This document shows, piece after piece, positions 22,656-32,093 of a stretch of DNA of 64,000 nt (position 1 is its first letter; the number at the start of each line of letters is the position of its first letter). A program made the position numbers and the translations under genes. A model generated the notes under the pieces. That model ran no database searches. It worked only from the letters and a program-made list of their open reading frames with translations, and was not told the DNA's origin. Origin of the DNA: Aigarchaeota archaeon (lineage in GTDB: Archaea; Thermoproteota; Nitrososphaeria_A; Caldarchaeales; Wolframiiraptoraceae); assembly GCA_025059205.1 (NCBI GenBank), contig JANXDS010000001.1:264014-328013 (forward strand), in the 5' to 3' direction.

Positions 22656-22736
22656 ACGTACAATTCACCCAACTTAACGTCTTCTTCTAGACCATATAAA
22701 TTAAGGTCCTTAAAATACTTCTTGATGATTGTTTTA

Positions 22737-22833
22737 CGGGCCCGGCGGGATTCGGACCCGCGACCCCCGGGTTAAAAGCCTCACCGAGACTTTCATCTCA
22801 CCGGTGCTCTGCTCCTGGCTGAGCTACGGGCCC
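22737..22833 (-). tRNA. tRNA-Lys (TTT) with a 21-nt intron in the anticodon stem
   Basis: 97 nt including the intron at 22780-22800; 76 nt when spliced. Acceptor GGGCCCG/CGGGCCC, D stem GCTC/GAGC, spliced anticodon stem CCGGG/CCCGG with loop CTTTTAA, T arm GCGGG TCCGAAT CCCGC, discriminator G. The splice sites form a perfect bulge-helix-bulge: bulge GGT, helix CACC:GGTG, bulge AGG, intron stem GAGA/TCTC. The intron sits between positions 30 and 31 instead of the usual 37/38. The 5' 22 bp, plus the preceding base, are the integration target of the element to the right. Confidence 0.96.
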
Positions 22834-22834
22834 A
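22812..22834. repeat. Left attachment site (attL), within the 5' part of tRNA-Lys
   Basis: Identical over 23 bases to 28502-28524; the flanking bases differ on both sides. It covers the acceptor 5' strand and most of the D arm of tRNA-Lys (minus strand), plus one upstream base. Confidence 0.9.
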
Positions 22835-22853
22835 ACTTCGGAGCTAAACCTAA

Positions 22854-22863
22854 TATTTAAATA
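22854..22863 (-). promoter_or_regulatory. TATA box for tRNA-Lys, supplied by the integrated element
   Basis: TATTTAAATA is centred about 25 bp upstream of the tRNA-Lys 5' end. It lies inside the element, between attL and the integrase gene, so the tRNA is now transcribed from element DNA. Confidence 0.55.
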
Positions 22864-22886
22864 CTTCTCTGCCCATATTTTACCCG

Positions 22887-23951
22887 ATGATCCCAAGGCG
22901 GAAGGGACTCGACCTCTCACAGCTCGAAGATTGTATCAGGGGATATTTAGATTTTAATCCCCGAATATTGGAGAAGAGGCAGCATTACAATCTGATCAAG
23001 GCTCTCGACTTCTTGAAGAATGAGCTGGGCGTTTCGACTATATCTGACCTCTTAAAGATGGATGTCAAGAACTTAACTCTGGCTTTGCAGAAATATGCGA
23101 ACTATTTAGTTAAAGAAGGTAAGGCCAGTAAATCGATACGCTTCGACCTATATCTGGTTAGAAGCTTTTTTTCTTTCCACGATCTGGAGATCAATCCAAA
23201 GAAGATTAAAATCCCGCGTAAATCTGGAAAGAGTAGACTCGATAGGATCCCATCCATGGCGGAGTTGCAGAAGTTAATTATGGGGTCGAGGTCGCCTAGG
23301 ATGCGGCTGGCAATCATGGCCATGGCCCTATGCGGCCTAAGGTTGAATGAATGCCTCGGCCTGAGGAGAGAGTGGATAGACCTCGAAAGGGGATTCATAA
23401 CCCTTCCACCGGAGGCCACGAAGACGGGTAAGGGCCGCGAGATACCGATACCATCGGAGCTTAAGCTCGAGCTCAAGAGATACCTGGAGAGTTATTCGTA
23501 TGGGCGTGGTTATCTGTTCTGCGTCAAGGAAAACCCCGAGAAACGTATTCCAACAAATCGGTTTTATGAAAGCTATATCGCGTTATTGAGGCGTCTCGGC
23601 CTCGATCAAAGGACACCCGATGGATCGGCCTATGCGTTGCACCCGCATGTTTTCAGGAAATGGTATCGGACACAACTCGAGGCCGCCGGAGTGAATAAGA
23701 GCCTGATCGACCTCTGGATCGGACACAACTCGGGAATAGATAAGACCTACTATCTCCCAACGCCCGAGATCATAAAACAGGAATTCGAGAAGGCCGATAA
23801 AGCCCTTAGGATCTTTGGAGGGGCGATTCCGATGAGCATGACGACGGAGAAGCTCGAGGCAATGGAAGAAGCCATAAAATTCTACGAAGCATTGATGGGC
23901 CACATATCGAAGACTAATCCGAGGTTGCTGAAGATCTTGGGTCTAGAATAA
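22887..23951 (+). CDS. Tyrosine recombinase / integrase
   Basis: 354 residues. An N-terminal helical core-binding region (about 1-115) is followed by the catalytic domain with R152 (CGLRLNECLGLR), a Lys at 179 or 182 (TKTGKGREIPIP), H254-x-x-R257 (HPHVFRKWYR), H280 (WIGHNSG) and the nucleophile, probably Y289 (KTYYLP). All catalytic residues are present. The ATG is 53 bp from attL and transcription runs into the element. It most likely catalyses integration and excision at tRNA-Lys. Confidence 0.93.
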   Translation: MIPRRKGLDLSQLEDCIRGYLDFNPRILEKRQHYNLIKALDFLKNELGVSTISDLLKMDVKNLTLALQKYANYLVKEGKASKSIRFDLYLVRSFFSFHDLEINPKKIKIPRKSGKSRLDRIPSMAELQKLIMGSRSPRMRLAIMAMALCGLRLNECLGLRREWIDLERGFITLPPEATKTGKGREIPIPSELKLELKRYLESYSYGRGYLFCVKENPEKRIPTNRFYESYIALLRRLGLDQRTPDGSAYALHPHVFRKWYRTQLEAAGVNKSLIDLWIGHNSGIDKTYYLPTPEIIKQEFEKADKALRIFGGAIPMSMTTEKLEAMEEAIKFYEALMGHISKTNPRLLKILGLE

Positions 23952-24111
23952 AAGTGAAAAATGCGAAATTTTACCCAAAACTCTCATCCTGACATCTTCG
24001 GGCAAGCCGTTCGAGTAAGCTCATGTCTAGCTTATAGACAGCCTGTAATACCCTCCATTTTGGCCTTTCGAGGGGCGATTTTGGTGAAGGGTATACGCTT
24101 TCTGGGGAGAG

Positions 24112-24244
24112 TACGGCAGTAGGAGGGCAGTATGGTAATACCAACTGCCGTAAAAAACATGCCTTATTTTGGCTTTCTAGGGCTTAGAAAGGCGCTTCGG
24201 CAGTACGGCAGTTCCGGCAGTAAGTAGCGAGAGGCTACTGCCGG
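24112..24244. repeat. Iteron-like GGCAGT cluster, candidate replication origin
   Basis: Five direct GGCAGT copies (24115, 24126, 24199, 24207, 24216) and two inverted ACTGCC copies (24144, 24237) occur in 133 bp. Three of the direct copies are spaced 8-9 bp apart. Two 9-bp perfect inverted repeats are built from the same motif: TACGGCAGT/ACTGCCGTA (24112-24120 and 24144-24152) and CCGGCAGTA/TACTGCCGG (24214-24222 and 24236-24244). The region is otherwise non-coding and abuts the 3' end of the replication gene. Direct plus inverted short repeats next to a replication gene are typical of plasmid origins. Confidence 0.6.
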
Positions 24245-26298
24245 TAGGTTGTTAGGGGTATTGCGACTTTATACCTTCGGGCAAGCCTCTCTATGAGGGC
24301 TAAGTCGATTTTATAGCCGCGGCGGCCATTAGGTAGCTTTATCCTTTTGAACCCGAGGGCTGACATATATCTTCCAACCTTTTCAGAAGCCCAAAGGGGC
24401 TTTGATGAGTTTCCATTCAAACGTTCCAATAGCTGCTGAACCGTAACGACCTCTGGAGCGTCCTGCTCGCTCTCACCGATAATAGTCATCAGGCATTCGA
24501 CGAGTTCTGCTTCCTCCACGCATCCCTCGAGACCTGCAATCTCCTCCTCTACCTTTCGCCCATACCGCTCGATGGCTTCCTTTGCCTTTGGTCCTCCGAA
24601 TGTTTCGGCCATGACAAGCAGAGGGCTGATGAGTTCCTGAACACGCCCATCGTCGCTTTGAAATTCCTCGAAAGAAACTTGAATTTTGCTCCACACACGT
24701 AATTTTTGAGCAAGCCATCGAGTCCTAAGTTCCTCGGCCTTTTGTTCATTGATTTTTTTCACCGTAGGTCTGAGTTGCTTCTCGCAATGGATGACGATTG
24801 AGCGGCTGAGCGTGTCAGCGGGCGGCTCCTCTCGCGACGCATATATGATAAATGAAAAAACGTCAAACCACTTTACACCCTCGAGCCCGTCTGCTTCTGG
24901 ATCAATCACCCTCGGCACCTTTTGCCCGCGACGATACGCGGCCGCGAAGATAGCGCGAACATTTTGGTCGATAACATGCGCTTCGTCAACGAGTAATGTC
25001 GGTTTCAAGGATTCGATCAGTCTAAAAAATGAAGCTTCGGAGGGGTCAACCAGCAGCATGGCCCTGTCGCAAATTGCGGCCATTACCTCAAGCGCACGAG
25101 TTTTTCCGCTCCGCCAAGGGCCTAGGAAGAGGATGAACGGCGTCGATACATTGATAGATCGATAGAGGTACGACCATGCGACCGCTGCCGTCAGGACATC
25201 GTAAACATCCTCATCACGAGGGTTGTCGTAGTGTTTTTGTATGAAAACTTTTGTATCTTCCCAAAGAGTCGGGTCCTCAGCAATCCGTTCGGGTATACGA
25301 GGTAATGTAAAAGGAATGTTTGGATAGGGTTCAACTATATGACCGTCGACTTCCATCCTCGCATAAACCGAGAAAGTTTGACCATCCCACACTAACAAAC
25401 TCGGCATTCCGTTTTCATCCTTCACAACTTCAATAAGTTTTCCATCGATTACCTCATTGCCGACCGTGTAGCGTTTAATCTTCTTTTCGCCCTCTTCCTG
25501 CGTTTTTTCTCTTTGTGGTAAGAGGGCGAGAATTTCATCCACCCTGTCGCGGCCCACGATGGCCTGTAATTCTTCAACCAGACCAGTAAAACCTTTTATC
25601 CCATCCAACGGTTTTCTATATGTATCCTCTAACGCTCGTAAACGATCTTTCAGTTCTGGATCCTCTGCGAGAAGAGATATTGCTTTAATGATTACTATAG
25701 CCTCGTTTAATGGTATCCCAGTTTTTCGGAGATAGCCGTTAAGCCATAGCGAAAGGTTATGCCGATGGCCCTCCGTCCAAACCTCGGAGATTTTCTTGAT
25801 AAGCTGTTCATACTTTGCGATAGTGTTGACTATCGCCTCTATCTTCCTCATCTTCTCATCGTCAACTTCTGCTATCGGGTTCTTCTCGGGATCGCATTGA
25901 AAAACGTATTCGTGGCCCTCGACGATTGAAGGCGGCGCGACCACTTGGCATCCTTTCCCTAAAATTTGTACAAATTTAGACTTTTTATTAGTTTCAGGAT
26001 AACGCCTCTCGGCCTTAAGGTAAACATGTAAACCTCGGCGAGTCCTGACGACCCATGTCAAGGGAATTTCATCCAATATCAATGGCCCGAGCCTGTGGTC
26101 ATCGATGTCTATTACAAAAATTGGCGCCTCGAGCCTAAGGCCAACATTATCCCCTGATTCAAAAAACTCTAACAGCCTCTCGATTGGTAAAGAGGGCCAA
26201 TCTTCTACCTTCGGTATTTTAGTGTTGGGTCGTAATGGAATCGGTACAAGACCAACCCCTCGATATTCTTTTAGAACGTCGGCCACACTTACGGCCAT
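24235..26298 (-). CDS. Replication protein: PrimPol domain plus superfamily 3-like helicase/ATPase
   Basis: 687 residues. The N-terminal bifunctional primase-polymerase domain has the metal-binding D64-x-D66 (FVIDIDDHRLG) and H91 (RRGLHVYLK). After a linker domain, an ATPase region has Walker A GPWRSGKT (393-400) and Walker B LLVDEAH (about 435-441). The C-terminus looks like a winged helix (KPLWASEKVGRYMSALGFKRIK). Such PrimPol-helicase fusions start replication of many archaeal plasmids, where one protein both primes and unwinds. It is the last gene of a minus-strand operon, and the candidate origin lies just past its stop. Confidence 0.9.
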   Translation of the reverse strand: MAVSVADVLKEYRGVGLVPIPLRPNTKIPKVEDWPSLPIERLLEFFESGDNVGLRLEAPIFVIDIDDHRLGPLILDEIPLTWVVRTRRGLHVYLKAERRYPETNKKSKFVQILGKGCQVVAPPSIVEGHEYVFQCDPEKNPIAEVDDEKMRKIEAIVNTIAKYEQLIKKISEVWTEGHRHNLSLWLNGYLRKTGIPLNEAIVIIKAISLLAEDPELKDRLRALEDTYRKPLDGIKGFTGLVEELQAIVGRDRVDEILALLPQREKTQEEGEKKIKRYTVGNEVIDGKLIEVVKDENGMPSLLVWDGQTFSVYARMEVDGHIVEPYPNIPFTLPRIPERIAEDPTLWEDTKVFIQKHYDNPRDEDVYDVLTAAVAWSYLYRSINVSTPFILFLGPWRSGKTRALEVMAAICDRAMLLVDPSEASFFRLIESLKPTLLVDEAHVIDQNVRAIFAAAYRRGQKVPRVIDPEADGLEGVKWFDVFSFIIYASREEPPADTLSRSIVIHCEKQLRPTVKKINEQKAEELRTRWLAQKLRVWSKIQVSFEEFQSDDGRVQELISPLLVMAETFGGPKAKEAIERYGRKVEEEIAGLEGCVEEAELVECLMTIIGESEQDAPEVVTVQQLLERLNGNSSKPLWASEKVGRYMSALGFKRIKLPNGRRGYKIDLALIERLARRYKVAIPLTTYRQ

Positions 26299-26480
26299 GC
26301 CCTTATTTCCTCCTTACCCGCGGGCTTGAGGACGACGACGTGGAGCCTATAATTTGTAGGCATGTATTTTTGATAACATAAATGAGCCGACGATCGTACC
26401 ACTTCAATGAGTTTTTTTACTGTCTCCTCGTCAGCGCGGAATACGAGCGCGCAGACTAAATTTTTATCAACGTTACGCAT
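26289..26480 (-). CDS. Small element protein, unknown
   Basis: 63 residues (MRNVDKNLVCALVFRADEE...) with a mixed alpha/beta pattern and a possible ferredoxin-like or copy-control size. Start ATG 26480; it overlaps the replication gene by 10 bp and so is translated with it. No family recognised. Confidence 0.5.
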   Translation of the reverse strand: MRNVDKNLVCALVFRADEETVKKLIEVVRSSAHLCYQKYMPTNYRLHVVVLKPAGKEEIRAWP

Positions 26481-26506
26481 TTTTCACATCCCCTTAATGA
26501 CAAACA

Positions 26507-26695
26507 TCAACGATGATTCGATTGCCTCTCTCTAACACTTTCCACTTCCCTCCTCAAACATTTTGGGCAAAGATCGACTTTCTGGCCGCTTCCTCCAAAG
26601 TAGATTGAAACAAATTTTTCATGATGATCGGTATAGCCACACCGATCACAACTTCTCAAACCCTCACCGATGGCGGCCTTTAGTATCTTACCCAT
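26507..26695 (-). CDS. Small zinc-finger protein of the element
   Basis: 62 residues with two Cys pairs, CDRCGY and CPKCLRRE, 27 residues apart. Basic residues flank the second pair. Probably a single treble-clef or ribbon zinc site that binds DNA or a partner protein. Its ATG overlaps the 3' end of the coiled-coil gene by 8 bp, within the replication operon. Confidence 0.55.
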   Translation of the reverse strand: MGKILKAAIGEGLRSCDRCGYTDHHEKFVSIYFGGSGQKVDLCPKCLRREVESVRERQSNHR

Positions 26696-27206
26696 TTCCT
26701 CCTACCTCGCGAATCCACTCATGAACCCGAGTTTTGAAAAGCTGAAGTCGTGAGAGCGTAACCCCATTCAAAAACATTTCATATGGATGTTTGCGGACTG
26801 GATTTAGCTCCAGCTCACTCTCTATATGAAAGAGTTCGCGATACGTTTCCTCGGTCTTATCAAGTTGTTTTCTTACCTCCTCGAAGGCGGACAAAAAATC
26901 ATCGAGTGATCTGCTCAGCTTCTGAAGCTTCTCGCTTAAAACTAAAAGCTCCCCTTCGTACTTTTTACGAGCAGCGGGGAGGAGTTTTTCGAGCTCATTT
27001 CTTCTGGCCTCCATCTCTTTCATGATCTCGCTCTGAATTTCTGAAAGCAGCTTCAGCTCCTCATCGATTTTCTTCCTCTCTAGAATTAACTCAATTCCTA
27101 GGGGGTTTTCTGCTATCATCCTATCGAGGTTGGCGGCCATCTTCTCTAATCCTGTCCGCTTATGGTTAATCTCAAGCAGTTGTCGTCTTCTCTGCGACAG
27201 GCTCAT
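26688..27206 (-). CDS. Coiled-coil protein of the element, unknown
   Basis: About 172 residues, almost wholly helical and rich in Glu/Lys/Leu heptads (RRNELEKLLPAARKKYEGEL). It is shaped like structural or accessory proteins of archaeal plasmids. The ATG at 27206 follows GGAAGGAGAA; a GTG five codons earlier is also open. It overlaps the preceding small gene by 35-50 bp. Function unknown. Confidence 0.55.
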   Translation of the reverse strand: MSLSQRRRQLLEINHKRTGLEKMAANLDRMIAENPLGIELILERKKIDEELKLLSEIQSEIMKEMEARRNELEKLLPAARKKYEGELLVLSEKLQKLSRSLDDFLSAFEEVRKQLDKTEETYRELFHIESELELNPVRKHPYEMFLNGVTLSRLQLFKTRVHEWIREVGGNG

Positions 27207-27363
27207 TTCTCCTTCCCTCACGCTTCAAAACAAAATTAAAAAATTCCTGACTATCGAGTAGTAACGGACGCAAAGACTCGGCATGAACGTCTCGGACCTT
27301 GTAATCACCTATTTTAACAGATATCGGACGCAGCCATGCTCTAATCTTCTCTTCTAGGCTCAT
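27172..27363 (-). CDS. Small element protein, unknown
   Basis: 63 residues beginning MSLEEKIRAWLRPISVKIGD. Its ATG directly follows the TAG of the AbrB-like gene and its tail overlaps the coiled-coil gene by up to 50 bp, so it sits inside the replication operon. No recognisable motif. Confidence 0.45.
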   Translation of the reverse strand: MSLEEKIRAWLRPISVKIGDYKVRDVHAESLRPLLLDSQEFFNFVLKREGRRNEPVAEKTTTA

Positions 27364-27507
27364 CTATTCCACCCTTGCTTCTCGTATTCTTAGAGAGCCG
27401 TCGGGTTCAACCTCGACCCATACAAATTCTGATAAAATCGTCGACGGAGGAATCACGACAGCTGATGATTTCCCAATACGTAATACCTTTCTTAATGTTT
27501 TGTTCAT
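27364..27507 (-). CDS. AbrB/MazE-like swapped-hairpin DNA-binding protein
   Basis: 47 residues: MNKTLRKVLRIGKSSAVVIP then PSTILSEFVWVEVEPDGSLRI. The pattern (basic strand, G-x-S-x-x-V-x-I-P, then V-x-V-E-x-x-x-D-G-x-L-x-I) is the signature of AbrB/SpoVT-type DNA-binding hairpins. A TATA box centred about 25 bp before its ATG suggests a leaderless transcript. It is the first gene of the replication operon and probably represses its own promoter. Confidence 0.7.
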   Translation of the reverse strand: MNKTLRKVLRIGKSSAVVIPPSTILSEFVWVEVEPDGSLRIREARVE

Positions 27508-27518
27508 GTTATAAACGT

Positions 27519-27542
27519 CTTAACCGTTAAATATTTATATAT
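27519..27542. promoter_or_regulatory. Shared divergent promoter with palindromic site
   Basis: A single A/T stretch (AAATATTTATATAT) can act as TATA box for the AbrB-like operon on the minus strand (25 bp to its ATG) and for the winged-helix gene on the plus strand. Next to it is the odd palindrome TTAACCGTTAA (27520-27530). The short 39-bp gap means that one bound regulator would affect both directions. Confidence 0.45.
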
Positions 27543-27546
27543 CGGT

Positions 27547-28452
27547 TTGAAAAGTAAAGAAGTAAGTTTGGAAATCTCAAAAATCGAGAAATTAAGTGAT
27601 CGGGCTCGGAGAATCTTCACTAACCTGCTATATACCGTCGGATGGGGTAATATCTACTATGATAAGCACGATCTTGAATCTTATGACCTTGATCCTAGTA
27701 CCATCGTACTCCACCTCCTTACTAAAGATGAAGCGACAAGAGTATACAATATTGGTAGGACCTTCTCAGGGCTGAGAGATGTTTTACAAGTTAGTAGTAA
27801 GACGTTAGCGAAATACCTTAAACTATGTGAGAAATATGGCCTGCTCATAGGTTATAGATTTGGGAAAAGCGTAAGATATTTCTTAACGGAGGCTGGAGAA
27901 AAATTCCTCTATAAACTAATAAATTACAGAGGTGGAGAAGGTCATACATTTCTTCTTGAGCCTCTAGTGATTTTAAGCATATTTTATCCCGGGACCAGAT
28001 TCATAAAAAGCATACCTCCAAGGCTCATTATAGGTAAAAGAGAGGTTTTACTAGATATTTTACCAAAAATAGACGTTGAACGCCTCCCCGAAGGGAAAAT
28101 CTATAATATCTTCCTAAGACTATTACATGGCCTCGGCTATGAGATCTTCTCCTTAAACGAGTTGGAGGGCTTAGGGGTAGAAATTAGTTGGAGGCTATCA
28201 AGACCGATAATTAACCTCAGTAATTTTTTAAAGTTACTCGAGGTGAAAAGAAGGAGAGGTATCGCCGAGAAGTCCATCCATCGAATAATGGGTTTGATCA
28301 TATGGGCCGTTTTAATGAGTAACAATATCGGTAAATTTTATCGATGGATTAGGGATAAGGAAGACCTCATTACGAGCGGGATCAATCCGCTATATCCAGA
28401 CAAGATTTATATGATTATTAGAGATAGAACCACGACTTACATGATTGTATGA
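27547..28452 (+). CDS. Winged-helix protein of the element, unknown function
   Basis: 301 residues. Residues about 60-125 contain a winged-helix pattern (GLRDVLQVSSKTLAKYLKLCEKYGLLIGYRFGKSVRYFLTEAGEKF); the rest is helical with no recognised motif. TTG at 27547 is the first start; an in-frame TTG at 27568 fits the TATA spacing better. It is markedly A+T-rich compared with chromosomal neighbours. Divergent from the replication operon and ending just before attR; it may be a regulator or a partition/copy-control factor. Confidence 0.6.
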   Translation: MKSKEVSLEISKIEKLSDRARRIFTNLLYTVGWGNIYYDKHDLESYDLDPSTIVLHLLTKDEATRVYNIGRTFSGLRDVLQVSSKTLAKYLKLCEKYGLLIGYRFGKSVRYFLTEAGEKFLYKLINYRGGEGHTFLLEPLVILSIFYPGTRFIKSIPPRLIIGKREVLLDILPKIDVERLPEGKIYNIFLRLLHGLGYEIFSLNELEGLGVEISWRLSRPIINLSNFLKLLEVKRRRGIAEKSIHRIMGLIIWAVLMSNNIGKFYRWIRDKEDLITSGINPLYPDKIYMIIRDRTTTYMIV

Positions 28453-28501
28453 GAAAGCTTTAAAAACCCTACAGAGCCCCGATTTTCCGCTCGTTAAATG
28501 C

Positions 28502-28524
28502 CTCCTGGCTGAGCTACGGGCCCA
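28502..28524. repeat. Right attachment site (attR), tRNA-Lys 5' fragment
   Basis: Exact 23-base copy of attL. The sequence to its left does not continue into tRNA-Lys, so only the attachment core was duplicated. Confidence 0.9.
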
Positions 28525-28540
28525 GTAGATGCTCTAACCG

Positions 28541-28550
28541 CATTTTTATG
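28541..28550 (-). promoter_or_regulatory. Probable original tRNA-Lys TATA box, now orphaned
   Basis: CATAAAAATG on the minus strand is centred about 23 bp upstream of where tRNA-Lys would begin at attR. This is the spacing expected for the promoter used before integration. Confidence 0.4.
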
Positions 28551-28569
28551 CCTCTGCCCCTCTATTTCT

Positions 28570-28850
28570 ATGCGTGGAGTCGGGGGCATCCTCGAGGATA
28601 GGTTGATGTCGCAGTATTTAGAGATTCAGCCCCTGGCCTCGAAGCCTCCCTGGATGCGACTGTTGATACGATTATCGTGTCAGACCGGCCTGAAGATCTC
28701 CGAGGCCCTAACCTTGAGGGGTGGACTACGTAGGCCTCGAGAAGAATGTTATAAGGGTTCCCGGAGAGATAATGAAGACGGGTGTCGGTAAAGAGGTCCC
28801 GATGGTCACCGAGCTGAGGGAGGCGTTAGTAAAACTACTTGAGGTAACAG
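28570..28850 (+). pseudogene. Frameshifted remnant of a second tyrosine integrase
   Basis: One frame gives PPWMRLLIRLSCQTGLKISEALTLR and the next gives VDYVGLEKNVIRVPGEIMKTGVGKEVPM. Together they match the region around R152 and the catalytic Lys of the intact integrase (LCGLRLNECLGLR, then a Lys-rich hairpin). The frame breaks near 28720 and the C-terminal half, with HxxR and Tyr, is missing. Its position just right of attR mirrors the intact gene's position just right of attL. It is probably left from an older element at the same site. Confidence 0.75.
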
Positions 28851-29128
28851 ACATTTTACCAAGTTTTGTTTTTTCTTCAAAATTCTTTAATGAAAAAGGT
28901 ATTCCATTGATTCGCACAAGAGACTTAGAAAAAATAGTATAGAAGCATTCTACGAAGGGCCTTGATGATCCATTATATCTTTTTTTACATCTTAAGGAAG
29001 CTGTTGAAAAACTTGAATCACAGGTAAGCCGGATAACAGTTAAGCATTTACTTAGAGACCATTTCAAGTTGATAAAAGTTCCATTACCTTATATTATAGA
29101 ACAAAAAATTGCCGAAATCCTTTTGTGA
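28851..29128 (+). pseudogene. Remnant of a type I restriction specificity subunit (HsdS-like)
   Basis: The frame carries FFNEKGIPLIRTRDLEKIV, a TAG stop, then LKEAVEKLESQVSRITVKHL and FKLIKVPLPYIIEQKIAEIL before TGA. 'KGIPLIRTRDL' and 'VPLPYIIEQKIAEIL' are the usual start and end motifs of an HsdS target-recognition half. The middle (most of the recognition domain) is deleted and one stop is internal. It is joined in frame to the integrase remnant, so this is a recombination junction. Confidence 0.65.
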
Positions 29129-29261
29129 TCAATAAAAAACCCGAAATTGAGAAGAATATGAGGGTAAGGTTATAGAGTATTAAACGTGGCTTGATGGATT
29201 TGCCTCTTTCTGGTAGGGTTAAGGTGGGCAGGCAATGAGTTTATGAATCTTCTCTTCAAAT

Positions 29262-29690
29262 ACCTTTGAAAACATCAAAGTGACCAAAGATAGATTATTG
29301 TGGGGATTCTGGGATAGAGAGGCAGGATAAAAACAAAAGAAAAATTGGAGAACATTCATAAGACTCTACAACAGGATAAATCCCTTTGACATTGTGGTAT
29401 TCCAAATAACTCGAACGGGGGCGATACATGCAATAAGTATAGTCAAGAGGACGTTTTACAATGATCAGACCCCAATATGGCCCCTCGAGATAAAGCAGAG
29501 ACGCATCCTCTTTCCATGGAAGGTGTCCTTCTGTAACATGATCTTCGCTGGCGAGCCATTCACAACACAATACATTACAATAGAAAATTATATTGATGGA
29601 TATGGTATAGGAGAATTATCAGATCACGAATTTAGGAGAATACTCGAAGAAATACAGCATAAAATCAACGCAGAACTCAATCTAGGATGA
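29262..29690 (+). pseudogene. Decayed EVE-like (PUA-related) domain protein
   Basis: The reading LLWGFWDREAG, an in-frame TAA, then NWRTFIRLYNRINPFDIVVFQITRTGAIHAI and PIWPLEIKQRRILFPWKVSF resembles EVE-like modified-base-reader domains (W-G-F, then D-x-V-V-F-x-I-x-x-x-G, then I-W-P-x-E ... P-W/Y-x-V). The part from 29394 is open for 98 codons, but the start of the domain is cut off by the stop, so expression as a functional protein is doubtful. Confidence 0.5.
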
Positions 29691-29695
29691 GAGAG

Positions 29696-29839
29696 ATGGG
29701 CTTAACAGAAAAACTCCTAGTCGAAGATTACATCAATCAAAAACTCATAGAAAAGTGGGAACTCGTATCTCATGAGAAGCTTGAGAGGGAGAGCCTCAAA
29801 GAATCCCCACTCACTCCATCCTCAAGGCCTTCTACGTAG
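29696..29839 (+). pseudogene. N-terminal scrap of a type I restriction HsdR-like protein
   Basis: 47 codons beginning MGLTEKLLVEDYINQKL and containing VSHEKLERESLKE, the usual opening of HsdR/type I restriction helicase proteins (TEKxLVEDYIxxKLxEKGW ... ELERES). It then runs out of frame and stops at TAG. The nuclease and helicase parts are absent. Confidence 0.55.
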
Positions 29840-30182
29840 CTGATGACTCGAAGATACACTATCTGGAGGGCGTCACAAATAACACCACCTCCAACGGGCT
29901 GGAAATAATGATCATGGCAAGGGTGGAGCCAACAACCAATGCTTCCCGGACGTAATCATGCCGATAGACCCTGCGGTAGCCGTCTTCACCTATGAGAAAG
30001 ACGGTGAAGATTACGACGAGTACCCTGGAGCGTTAAGTTATGCTTCAGGTTCCTCGAAAGTGGTTTACTTCGCGTTCGGATTCGAGGCCATCACCCACCC
30101 CGAGAATCCCGACAACATAGAACTGGGCAGTGCTATGCGGATGATAGTGATGCATAGAATCCTACAGTACCTGATGAATTGA
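29820..30182 (+). pseudogene. C-terminal remnant of a large secreted protein
   Basis: Two frames are needed: KAFYVADDSKIHYLEGVTNN (about 29825-29955), then MPIDPAVAVFTYEKDGEDY (29958-30182), ending SKVVYFAFGFEAIT ... MRMIVMHRILQYLMN. The last motif (VVYFxFxFEAI ... RILxYL) is common at the end of domains in archaeal extracellular proteases and similar surface proteins. Upstream parts are missing. Family call is tentative. Confidence 0.4.
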
Positions 30183-30265
30183 CCGGAGCTCGGAGAATCA
30201 ACTCTCCCTATTTTTTAAGATTGACGCTGGTATTCGACGCGAGGGGCATTCCTTTCAAAGGTCTG

Positions 30266-30283
30266 TCTAAAATTAATTTTAGA
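30266..30283. promoter_or_regulatory. 18-bp perfect palindrome upstream of the nuclease-like gene
   Basis: TCTAAAATTAATTTTAGA reads the same on both strands and is flanked by CCTTTC/GAAAGG. A TATA-like TTTATTATAG lies immediately after it, and the gene's ATG is 46 bp downstream. The position, touching the TATA/BRE region, is that expected of a repressor or activator site. Confidence 0.55.
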
Positions 30284-30328
30284 AAGGATTTATTATAGTG
30301 TCTTCAGTATTTACTTCAAGAGTTACAC

Positions 30329-31375
30329 ATGAGTTTGCCCAAGAATTTCATAGAAAACGTGTTAAGGTTTAAGGAAGGCTATCTCCATTATAGAGTTTCA
30401 GATGAGGGAGTTAGACTTAAGAGAGAAAGGAAGGAGCGGGAGAGTGGTATCCGTAAAATACTGAGTAAAGAGGAGCTGATGGCCCTTGACGAAGACCGCT
30501 TGTCATTTCTTGCCGATAATCTATACGCCTTCGGGTGGTGGGCTAAGAAAGAATACATAGTAGACTACTGGATAAAGGGAGCCGGAGGGATAAGCCGGCT
30601 GAGGCAGAGCTTTATAGATCTGCTGTATTCCGGCCAAGGCCTAGCCGATAGGTTGGACAAGTTTCGTAAAGACGTCAAAGGTATTGGAACTGCCACAATT
30701 ACCGAGGTTCTTACGTATTTCGATCCAAGAGAATATGGTATCTGGAACAGGATGGTGAGGGAAGCACTAGTTAAGCTTGGATTGTCGCGGATGGGAAAAG
30801 TAAGTGTAAGCAGGATGACGGGTAAACACAGGATTCTTAAGGATGTTGCCCAACTTCTAAGAGACGAGGAAAGGCTACCGAATCCAGACCTATTAGACGT
30901 GCATTACTTCCTATATTATGTTTTGATGCATGTTGAGACGGTAAATGAATCTGAGAAGCTGGAAGAGTCACCGGACCACGGAGAGATCATCAACATGTTA
31001 TTAAACATCGGAAGAGGTTTAGGATTTGATGCTTTAGCAGAAGTTCCACTGGTACCCGGGACGAGAGTGGACGTCGTGTGGTCTGCAAAGATTGGAAATC
31101 TAGGCGAATTGAGATACGTTTTCGAGGTTCAAGTTAGCGGTAACGTGGACGCCTTACTCCTTAATTTAATGAGAGCCTCTCAAGATCCGACGGTTCAGAA
31201 AGTTGTAGCTGTTGCTACAGATGAAGAGCTGGAAAAAATTAAGAGAGAAGCATCATCTTTGAGAATGATCTCCGATAAACTCGTCTACTGGAGCGTTAAG
31301 GAGGTTTATAAAGTGAACGAGTTGATCGAGAAGCTCATGGAAATAATGCAGAGGCTTAGATTGACTAAAATGTGA
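30329..31375 (+). CDS. Putative nuclease: helix-hairpin-helix plus PD-(D/E)XK-like domain
   Basis: 348 residues. Residues about 105-150 contain KDVKGIGTATITEVLTYFDPREYGIWNRM, a helix-hairpin-helix DNA-binding motif followed by a YGIWN segment. The C-terminal third has GLGFDALAEVPLVPGTRVDVVW and YVFEVQVSGN, which fit a PD-(D/E)XK core with Asp in RVDVVW and E-x-Q in place of E-x-K. Predicted to bind and possibly cut DNA. It sits beside restriction-modification remnants, so a defence role is plausible but unproven. It appears intact and has its own promoter. Confidence 0.6.
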   Translation: MSLPKNFIENVLRFKEGYLHYRVSDEGVRLKRERKERESGIRKILSKEELMALDEDRLSFLADNLYAFGWWAKKEYIVDYWIKGAGGISRLRQSFIDLLYSGQGLADRLDKFRKDVKGIGTATITEVLTYFDPREYGIWNRMVREALVKLGLSRMGKVSVSRMTGKHRILKDVAQLLRDEERLPNPDLLDVHYFLYYVLMHVETVNESEKLEESPDHGEIINMLLNIGRGLGFDALAEVPLVPGTRVDVVWSAKIGNLGELRYVFEVQVSGNVDALLLNLMRASQDPTVQKVVAVATDEELEKIKREASSLRMISDKLVYWSVKEVYKVNELIEKLMEIMQRLRLTKM

Positions 31376-31784
31376 AAACAGACAGAAGGATCACTTCTTC
31401 TCGTTTAGAATCTGAGTTAAAGCGATCTATCACTCCAGTGATTTCCCGAATGGTGACACGTACTACGAGTTCATTTCTAAGACCGTTCTGAACTTCTACT
31501 TTAATGTGGTCTTTTTCAATACTTCCTAAGAGACTTTATGGTCTCATAGATTCACTACTACAAAAACCCATGAGGTTCATGTAAAAGTGAATTTCTCCAC
31601 CTCTAAATCAGGGATATTGGAAACCACCAATATCCTATGTAGATCGCGCCATTACTAAATCCGTGTTTGAGTATCTAACCTCATGTAGGTAGTGTCATTT
31701 TTATCTTTTATTAGTTTTATCAGTAATGATACCTGACAGAAGAAGGTCGGAAAAAGAATATGCCGCTTTTATCCGATAGATGGT
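31376..31784. other. Intergenic stretch without a supported gene
   Basis: About 400 A/T-rich bases. Short coding-like pieces (FPNGDTYYEFISKTVLNFYF in one plus frame) are interrupted by stops, so old gene debris is possible. A 9-bp perfect inverted repeat with a 6-nt loop (31612-31635, GGATATTGG/CCAATATCC) is the only clear structure. Confidence 0.5.
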
Positions 31785-32093
31785 TCATGACCTCACGGAC
31801 TGCGCCTCTTTGATTATCCTCGAAATTTTCAAGACAAGCTCGTCCAACAACTTGACGAACTCCGTTTCATCGCGAATAACACTAAACTTCCTTTCCTTTA
31901 TGATTCTCATTATATCTCTCAGTTTCTCATCAGCCTTTCCTATCTTATCCATCAAACCTATTAATCTTTCCGCAGCATCAATTAATCTGAGCGGCCCGTA
32001 GAGTGGCGGCTCGTCAACACACCCTCTTGCGCTAACGATTAAGAATGTTAAGAGCTTGAAGTGCTCATCCTCTATAATGCTTTCCGTAGCCAT
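31785..32093 (-). CDS. Conserved helical archaeal protein (DUF6092-like)
   Basis: 102 residues, all helical: HFKLLTFLIVSARGCVDEPPLYGPLRLIDAAERLIGLM. The 'ARGxVDEPxxYGPxRL' pattern recalls the DUF6092 family of small proteins; the assignment is from memory. It overlaps the nitroreductase gene by 29 bp and is translated after it, suggesting a functional link. Confidence 0.6.
   Translation of the reverse strand: MATESIIEDEHFKLLTFLIVSARGCVDEPPLYGPLRLIDAAERLIGLMDKIGKADEKLRDIMRIIKERKFSVIRDETEFVKLLDELVLKISRIIKEAQSVRS

Follow-up and report, generated by a model that had tools for sequence, protein, structure and literature searches.

The 64-kb window considered here (64,000 nucleotides of contig C1 in a 1.19-Mb Aigarchaeota genome, G000; assembly GCA_025059205.1, contig JANXDS010000001.1, positions 264,014 to 328,013) contains an integrated element that we interpret with considerable confidence as an integrative plasmid of the order Caldarchaeales, 5690 bp as a circle, inserted at the 5′ end of a tRNA-Lys gene. 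That confidence applies to the explanation as a whole, which also holds that one arm of the element brings the tRNA a replacement promoter and that the plasmid replicates from an origin with iterons. The window was compared with 3 genomes of the same genus (G001, G003, and G005) and with further relatives; by apparent correspondence G005 is Ca. Terraquivivens tengchongensis, G030 is a Calditenuaceae metagenome-assembled genome (SKYB103), and G029 is Ca. Pelearchaeum maunauluense.

The element is bounded by a 23-bp direct repeat, CTCCTGGCTGAGCTACGGGCCCA, whose copies at 22812–22834 (attL) and 28502–28524 (attR) have no mismatch and are spaced 5690 bp apart. Exact 22-mer repeats are expected by chance at about 2e-6 in 9 kb, and a search of the window that tolerated up to 6 mismatches turned up no third copy. 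The repeated sequence makes up the first 23 bases of a tRNA-Lys(UUU) gene on the minus strand (22737–22833), which puts the insertion at the 5′ end of the tRNA, and the gene is reconstituted after integration. ARAGORN with introns allowed places this tRNA at complement 22736–22834 with a 21-nt intron, and the Rfam tRNA model (RF00005) matches 22737–22833 at 45 bits; in its default bacterial mode ARAGORN did not detect the intron-bearing gene. The original prediction, which had described exact repeats at both ends copied from the tRNA-Lys 5′ end, thus holds on both counts. Inside attR is a distal arm (28451–28501) partly conserved with the element in G005 (TTTAAAAACCCT..AGAGC; blastn 78% over 74 bp including the core), and the displaced upstream region of the tRNA lies beyond attR. 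Excision would be expected to give the joined attP junction ...TTAAATGC + CTCCTGGCTGAGCTACGGGCCCA + ACTTCGGAGC... on the circle, and to restore core + GTAGATGCTC... as the tRNA-Lys upstream region on the chromosome. The D-loop of this tRNA (22808–22815, at the edge of the att core) has one base more than in G001, G003, and G005, and the attR copies of the window and G005 elements read CTCCTGG; recombination may have altered the tRNA sequence.

Adjoining attL is a gene for a tyrosine integrase of 354 amino acids (22887–23951, plus strand; Pfam PF00589 Phage_integrase, 7e-17). Aligned to the XerA-like 4A8E, it has the complete catalytic set R-K-HxxR-H-Y, in agreement with the earlier description of an intact integrase next to one repeat. 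The gene is not split by the att site, which lies about 52 nt outside the open reading frame; the arrangement of suicidal integrases of the SSV, pTN3, and pT26-2 types, with att inside the integrase gene, is therefore not found here. Among 398 genomes of the phylum, members of this integrase family were found in 10, each of them from Caldarchaeales. The window integrase is closer to that of G030, from another family (71% identity), than to those of its congeners (67% and 60%), which fits horizontal movement. At every integrase locus where a tRNA was found, the integrase gene diverges from the tRNA 5′ end, and the target tRNAs of the clade (Lys-UUU, Arg-UCU, Arg-GCG, and Arg-CCU) all start with GGGCCC, with GGGCCCGT as a candidate recognition element of the integrase.

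The location of the att site has a consequence that was overlooked when the locus was first read as an integrated replicon, a reading that itself stands. Since the att core coincides with the tRNA 5′ end, what precedes the reconstituted gene is DNA of the element, and integration severs the tRNA from its own promoter. The integrase-proximal arm that takes this place (22835–22886) contains a palindromic TATA, ATATTTAAATAT (about 22854–22863), roughly 26 nt ahead of the tRNA on one side and roughly 28 nt ahead of the integrase start codon on the other. With the same distances in 8 elements, we infer that the arm is a shared promoter for tRNA-Lys on the minus strand and the integrase on the plus strand. 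Read on the tRNA strand, the arm consensus of elements in tRNA-Lys and tRNA-Arg genes is (G)AAATATTTAAATAT..TGTTTAGC..CG....(T)GGGCCC. The motif is centered 26 nt upstream in 7 of 7 distinct GGGCCC tRNAs with an undisrupted integrase start, and in 0 of 23 integrase-free GGGCCC tRNAs, a comparison of sites that are related by descent and are not independent trials; an eighth site, in AUK193, agrees. The site in G036, where the integrase is broken, has a degenerate form of the motif. A search for the arm pattern in 44 genomes of the order returned 5 with a match, one each, all at integrase loci, and the DNA that precedes tRNA-Lys in the element-free congeners G001 and G003 is of different sequence, with TATA-like boxes at roughly the same position.

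Across elements the integrase start codon lies 50 to 53 nt from the tRNA, which places the symmetrical TATA about equidistant from the two genes. Such equal spacing is what would be expected if a tRNA and a leaderless mRNA were both transcribed from one TATA, and the palindrome is probably a shared bidirectional promoter. Loci with a solo integrase or remnants and no PrimPol gene (L107:310–331 and 969–990; L104:15257–16351) still have the divergent orientation from the tRNA 5′ end and an intact promoter arm, which apparently persists longer than the other parts of the element.

In the proposed sequence of events, the integrase would recombine attP with the tRNA 5′ end, leaving the tRNA body on one side and displacing its own promoter to the opposite end of the insertion. 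The arm would then supply the replacement, one symmetrical TATA driving the tRNA in one direction and a leaderless integrase mRNA in the other. Once excised, the circle would be replicated in the manner of pRN1 plasmids, by its PrimPol protein from an iteron origin behind the PrimPol gene, and the AbrB-like and winged-helix proteins would act as regulators.

The chromosome beyond attR points to earlier insertions. Beside attR (28573–28940, plus strand) are the remains of an older, frameshifted integrase from the same family (tblastn 1e-8 to 1e-10, collinear pieces in 2 frames), so the present element is not the first occupant of the site. The DNA immediately past attR in G030 resembles a promoter arm of earlier date (score 15 against a shuffle maximum of 11, 0/500), and the attR flank in the window is not recognizable as one (412/500 shuffles as good). 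These traces of older elements at 2 occupied sites suggest that control of the tRNA changes hands. We offer tentatively, as something possible rather than likely, the further idea of a portable bidirectional promoter: a single symmetrical TATA would have to drive both the host tRNA and the integrase, successive insertions would pass on control of the tRNA, and as the original promoter decayed the host would become dependent on the resident element. Between attR and the conserved chromosome there is also a gene for a 348-amino acid protein (30329–31375), possibly cargo of an older element, without a match in Pfam, NCBIfam, or PADLOC.

Three further elements have the same arrangement as the one in the window, although some of the relatives are contig fragments. 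The 7.4-kb element in G005 occupies the orthologous tRNA-Lys gene, its repeats (L025:5899 and 13302) being 7403 bp apart, and its proteins are 67% (integrase), 54% (PrimPol), and 62% (Zn-ribbon) identical to those of the window; its PrimPol gene is on the strand opposite to that of the integrase, and it has a PIN-domain gene and a CopG-type (ribbon-helix-helix, RHH) regulator. In G030 the layout recurs at tRNA-Arg(UCU), spread over 2 contigs, with exact 22-bp att copies (L109:11108–11129 and L027:3505–3526). The third is CalSub-E1, in which 20-bp copies of a tRNA-Ser 5′ end lie at L029:4189 and 11360; the locus was equated with CalSub-E1 from matching features (tRNA-Ser, split PrimPol genes) and not from its accession. 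In addition, a 9578-bp contig from AUK193 labelled Bathyarchaeota (L124, JAGGZB010000017.1) encodes a 69% identical integrase at tRNA-Lys(UUU), together with a helicase and an AbrB/winged-helix pair; its cargo is a type II restriction-modification pair. The contig may be mis-binned or reflect cross-lineage transfer.

The genes of the window element are absent from most relatives, and none was found to have the same genes at this locus without the 23-bp repeat. G001 and G003 have no integrase or second repeat directly beside tRNA-Lys, which, with the related element at the same tRNA in G005, bears out the prediction of a PrimPol replicon integrated between att sites. Collinearity of the left chromosomal arm with G001 extends as far as tRNA-Lys; there the G001 assembly breaks, and both contig ends carry the tRNA. 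On the right, G003 is collinear with the window from position 31807 onward. The start of G001 contig C1 and the end of C3 (L063, L062) overlap over the tRNA-Lys region only, as would fit strain variation in occupancy.

The predicted PrimPol-helicase gene was located within the element at 24235–26298 on the minus strand, encoding 687 amino acids with a Pfam Prim-Pol match of 1e-12 and relatives at 54% to 60% identity. The nearest solved structure to its profile is pRN1 ORF904, a weak match (E 0.017–0.085), and the AlphaFold model is poor (pLDDT 56, helicase unresolved). Matches to named plasmids are weak, the best being a Sulfolobus neozealandicus plasmid at 28%; single-sequence scans of genome contigs and viral contigs gave no PrimPol match, nor did a phage collection. 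Directly 3′ of the gene is a candidate replication origin (24072–24243) made up of 7 CGGCAGTA-like iterons (about 24114–24243) and a block, CCCAGAAAGCGTATACCCTTCACC/AAAATCGCC, common to a replicon on contig C12 of the same genome. No shuffle out of 60 had as many iterons (maximum 4), and 24 control stretches of the window contained no cluster of identical 7-mers. In the same place, CCTTCACC iterons number 6 in the G005 element and 7 in the PrimPol contig C12, and a 24-nt block, CCCAGAAAGCGTATnCCCTTCACC, is common to the window element (E1) and C12. A stem-loop in the window element (10-bp stem, 51-nt loop) is borderline, matched by 4/200 shuffles. When elements were examined for a pRN1-like stem-loop, it was strong in CalSub-E1 alone, borderline in the window element and G030, and absent in element E2. 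The stem-loop of CalSub-E1 (L029:7871–8009), with 26-nt arms and an 87-nt loop directly 3′ of the helicase gene, strongly resembles the geometry of the pRN1 origin.

Contig C12 (L026:1–3375) is a second, related replicon of the window genome, with a different integrase of 439 amino acids and the C-terminal half of a PrimPol that is 60% identical to that of the window element and 73% to that of G005. The difference between its iterons and those of the window element is what compatible plasmids would show.

Upstream of the PrimPol gene are the small genes, of which the ORFs for 172, 63, 62, and 301 amino acids were present as predicted and 2 others also belong to the set. On the minus strand they encode a 63-amino acid protein overlapping the PrimPol start (26289–26480; positional counterparts in relatives at 14% to 20% identity), a 62-amino acid Zn-ribbon protein (26507–26695; 62% to the G005 element, 34% to CalSub-E1), a 172-amino acid coiled-coil protein (26688–27206; positional counterparts in relatives), a second 63-amino acid protein (27172–27363; relatives not found in searches), and a predicted 47-amino acid AbrB/MazE-like DNA-binding protein (27364–27507; 44% to 53% to counterparts in G001, G030, CalSub-E1, and AUK193). 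The 301-amino acid winged-helix protein (27547–28452, plus strand) diverges from the AbrB-like gene, and this divergent pair is also found in 4 other elements, 3 of the 4 with a PF25213-type N-terminus. The suggestion that the small genes belong to no recognized family did not survive, as Zn-ribbon, AbrB-like, coiled-coil, and winged-helix counterparts recur in other elements. That they lack chromosomal counterparts was upheld for the AbrB-like and 301-amino acid proteins, for which no confident chromosomal homolog was found in the order.

Several points weigh against an integrative plasmid with a promoter-bearing arm. Neither a transcript nor a circular form was seen, and searches found no free copy of the element. 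No empty site with both flanks preserved was found in the relatives compared, because the 3.3 kb beyond attR (28525–31806) is itself variable, and a permissive-E comparison of element DNA with 22 genomes of the family gave no convincing CRISPR-spacer-like match. The arm motif was not found in CalSub-E1, limiting the promoter feature to the GGGCCC clade. Finally, the arm could also be conserved because the integrase binds there, or solely as the promoter of the integrase gene. We consider it unlikely that the arm is just an integrase promoter with arm-type integrase binding sites, the tRNA being read from some other signal and the fixed distance reflecting the geometry of the recombination complex. 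The arm does lie inside attP, where integrase sites are expected, and the distal arm is partly conserved as well, but the proximal arm is the only DNA upstream of the tRNA, its TATA is palindromic, and the center of that TATA is 26 nt from the tRNA, like the TATA-like boxes of several integrase-free tRNAs.

We give a minor though real share of the probability to the plasmid being a dead remnant, integrated once and since deprived of excision and replication. The decayed same-family integrases beside attR here and in G036 indicate that decay is common at such sites, and the lack of an observed circular copy points the same way; against this, the att copies are identical, the catalytic residues intact, the PrimPol frame open, and the iterons intact, features from which continued mobility appears plausible. 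A provirus is highly improbable. PrimPol proteins do occur in viruses and the small proteins are without assigned function, but PHROGs and Pfam gave no convincing capsid, portal, terminase, or packaging match for 8 proteins (the coiled coil had only weak, non-specific ones), relatives of the integrase (searched as an alignment) and of PrimPol were absent from the viral contigs covered, which were searched by short conserved peptides, and the genes of this 5.7-kb element are mostly regulatory. A coincidental repeat around ordinary chromosomal genes has in its favor an unremarkable base composition; the chance expectation for the repeat, the 3 similarly arranged elements, and the absence of the genes from most relatives leave it a negligible likelihood, and the comparative data rule it out.

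Most tRNA-targeting elements use the 3′ end of the gene and leave the tRNA promoter untouched. The clade described here takes the opposite end, and a conserved movable promoter appears to solve the resulting promoter problem, so that the capture of tRNA transcription by a mobile element can here be put to the test. If the promoter is indeed portable in the manner proposed, host viability and control of excision would be tied to one DNA element. Genetic tools for Caldarchaeales, an order with a reported cultured member, Wolframiiraptor gerlachensis (PMC9246946), could perhaps also be built from the replicon, its candidate origin, and its integrase. In the open-access literature searched we found no description of the clade, its GGGCCC-tRNA preference, its fixed symmetrical promoter, or the traces of re-occupation.

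Contrary to the earlier proposal, the family of the element is not altogether undescribed, since it has a distant relative in CalSub-E1, a cryptic integrated element of Ca. Caldarchaeum subterraneum. Its authors noted it as unique among thaumarchaeal elements in being located at a tRNA 5′ end, and described its primase, linker, and helicase as separate genes (Krupovic 2019, PMC6563490). Both have a 5′-end att, an integrase divergent from the tRNA, AbrB-like (53% identity) and Zn-ribbon (34%) genes, a divergent winged-helix gene (weak similarity), and PrimPol (about 36% over the primase and linker parts) and helicase functions. CalSub-E1 differs in its integrase (29% identical), its tRNA-Ser target, its split primase, linker, and helicase genes, and its lack of a conserved palindromic arm. 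Another insertion in the same order, in a Caldiarchaeum tRNA-Thr gene, involves a 5′ tRNA fragment and a recombinase-like gene and was tied to intron gain (Sugahara 2012, PMC3293823); the likeness is drawn from its description, in which the 813-bp “b” gene was assigned by SVMProt and the sections consulted report no PrimPol.

A parallel in replication is the pRN1 family of Sulfolobales, small replicons that likewise combine a PrimPol-helicase with small DNA-binding regulators; directly 3′ of the PrimPol gene, where the window element has its candidate origin, pRN1 has its essential origin region (PMC4234260). The pRN1 origin is a 100-bp stem-loop, whereas the clear feature of the window element is its iterons; as to the regulator, the window element has an AbrB-like protein and the G005 element a CopG-type (RHH) one. 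Replacement of a tRNA promoter by a 5′-targeting element is already known from the pTN3-like elements of Thermococcales, which integrate into the tRNA 5′ half and leave a recombinant tRNA, cut from its own promoter, to be expressed from the integrase promoter (Cossu 2017, PMC5495485; Badel 2021, PMC8371274). These share 5′ targeting and promoter replacement with the window element but have different replication genes, and their integrases are suicidal, the gene being split by att. The window integrase is whole and diverges from the tRNA across a dedicated symmetrical arm, extending a phenomenon recorded in archaea for the self-disrupting pTN3 type to an entire clade with intact integrases.

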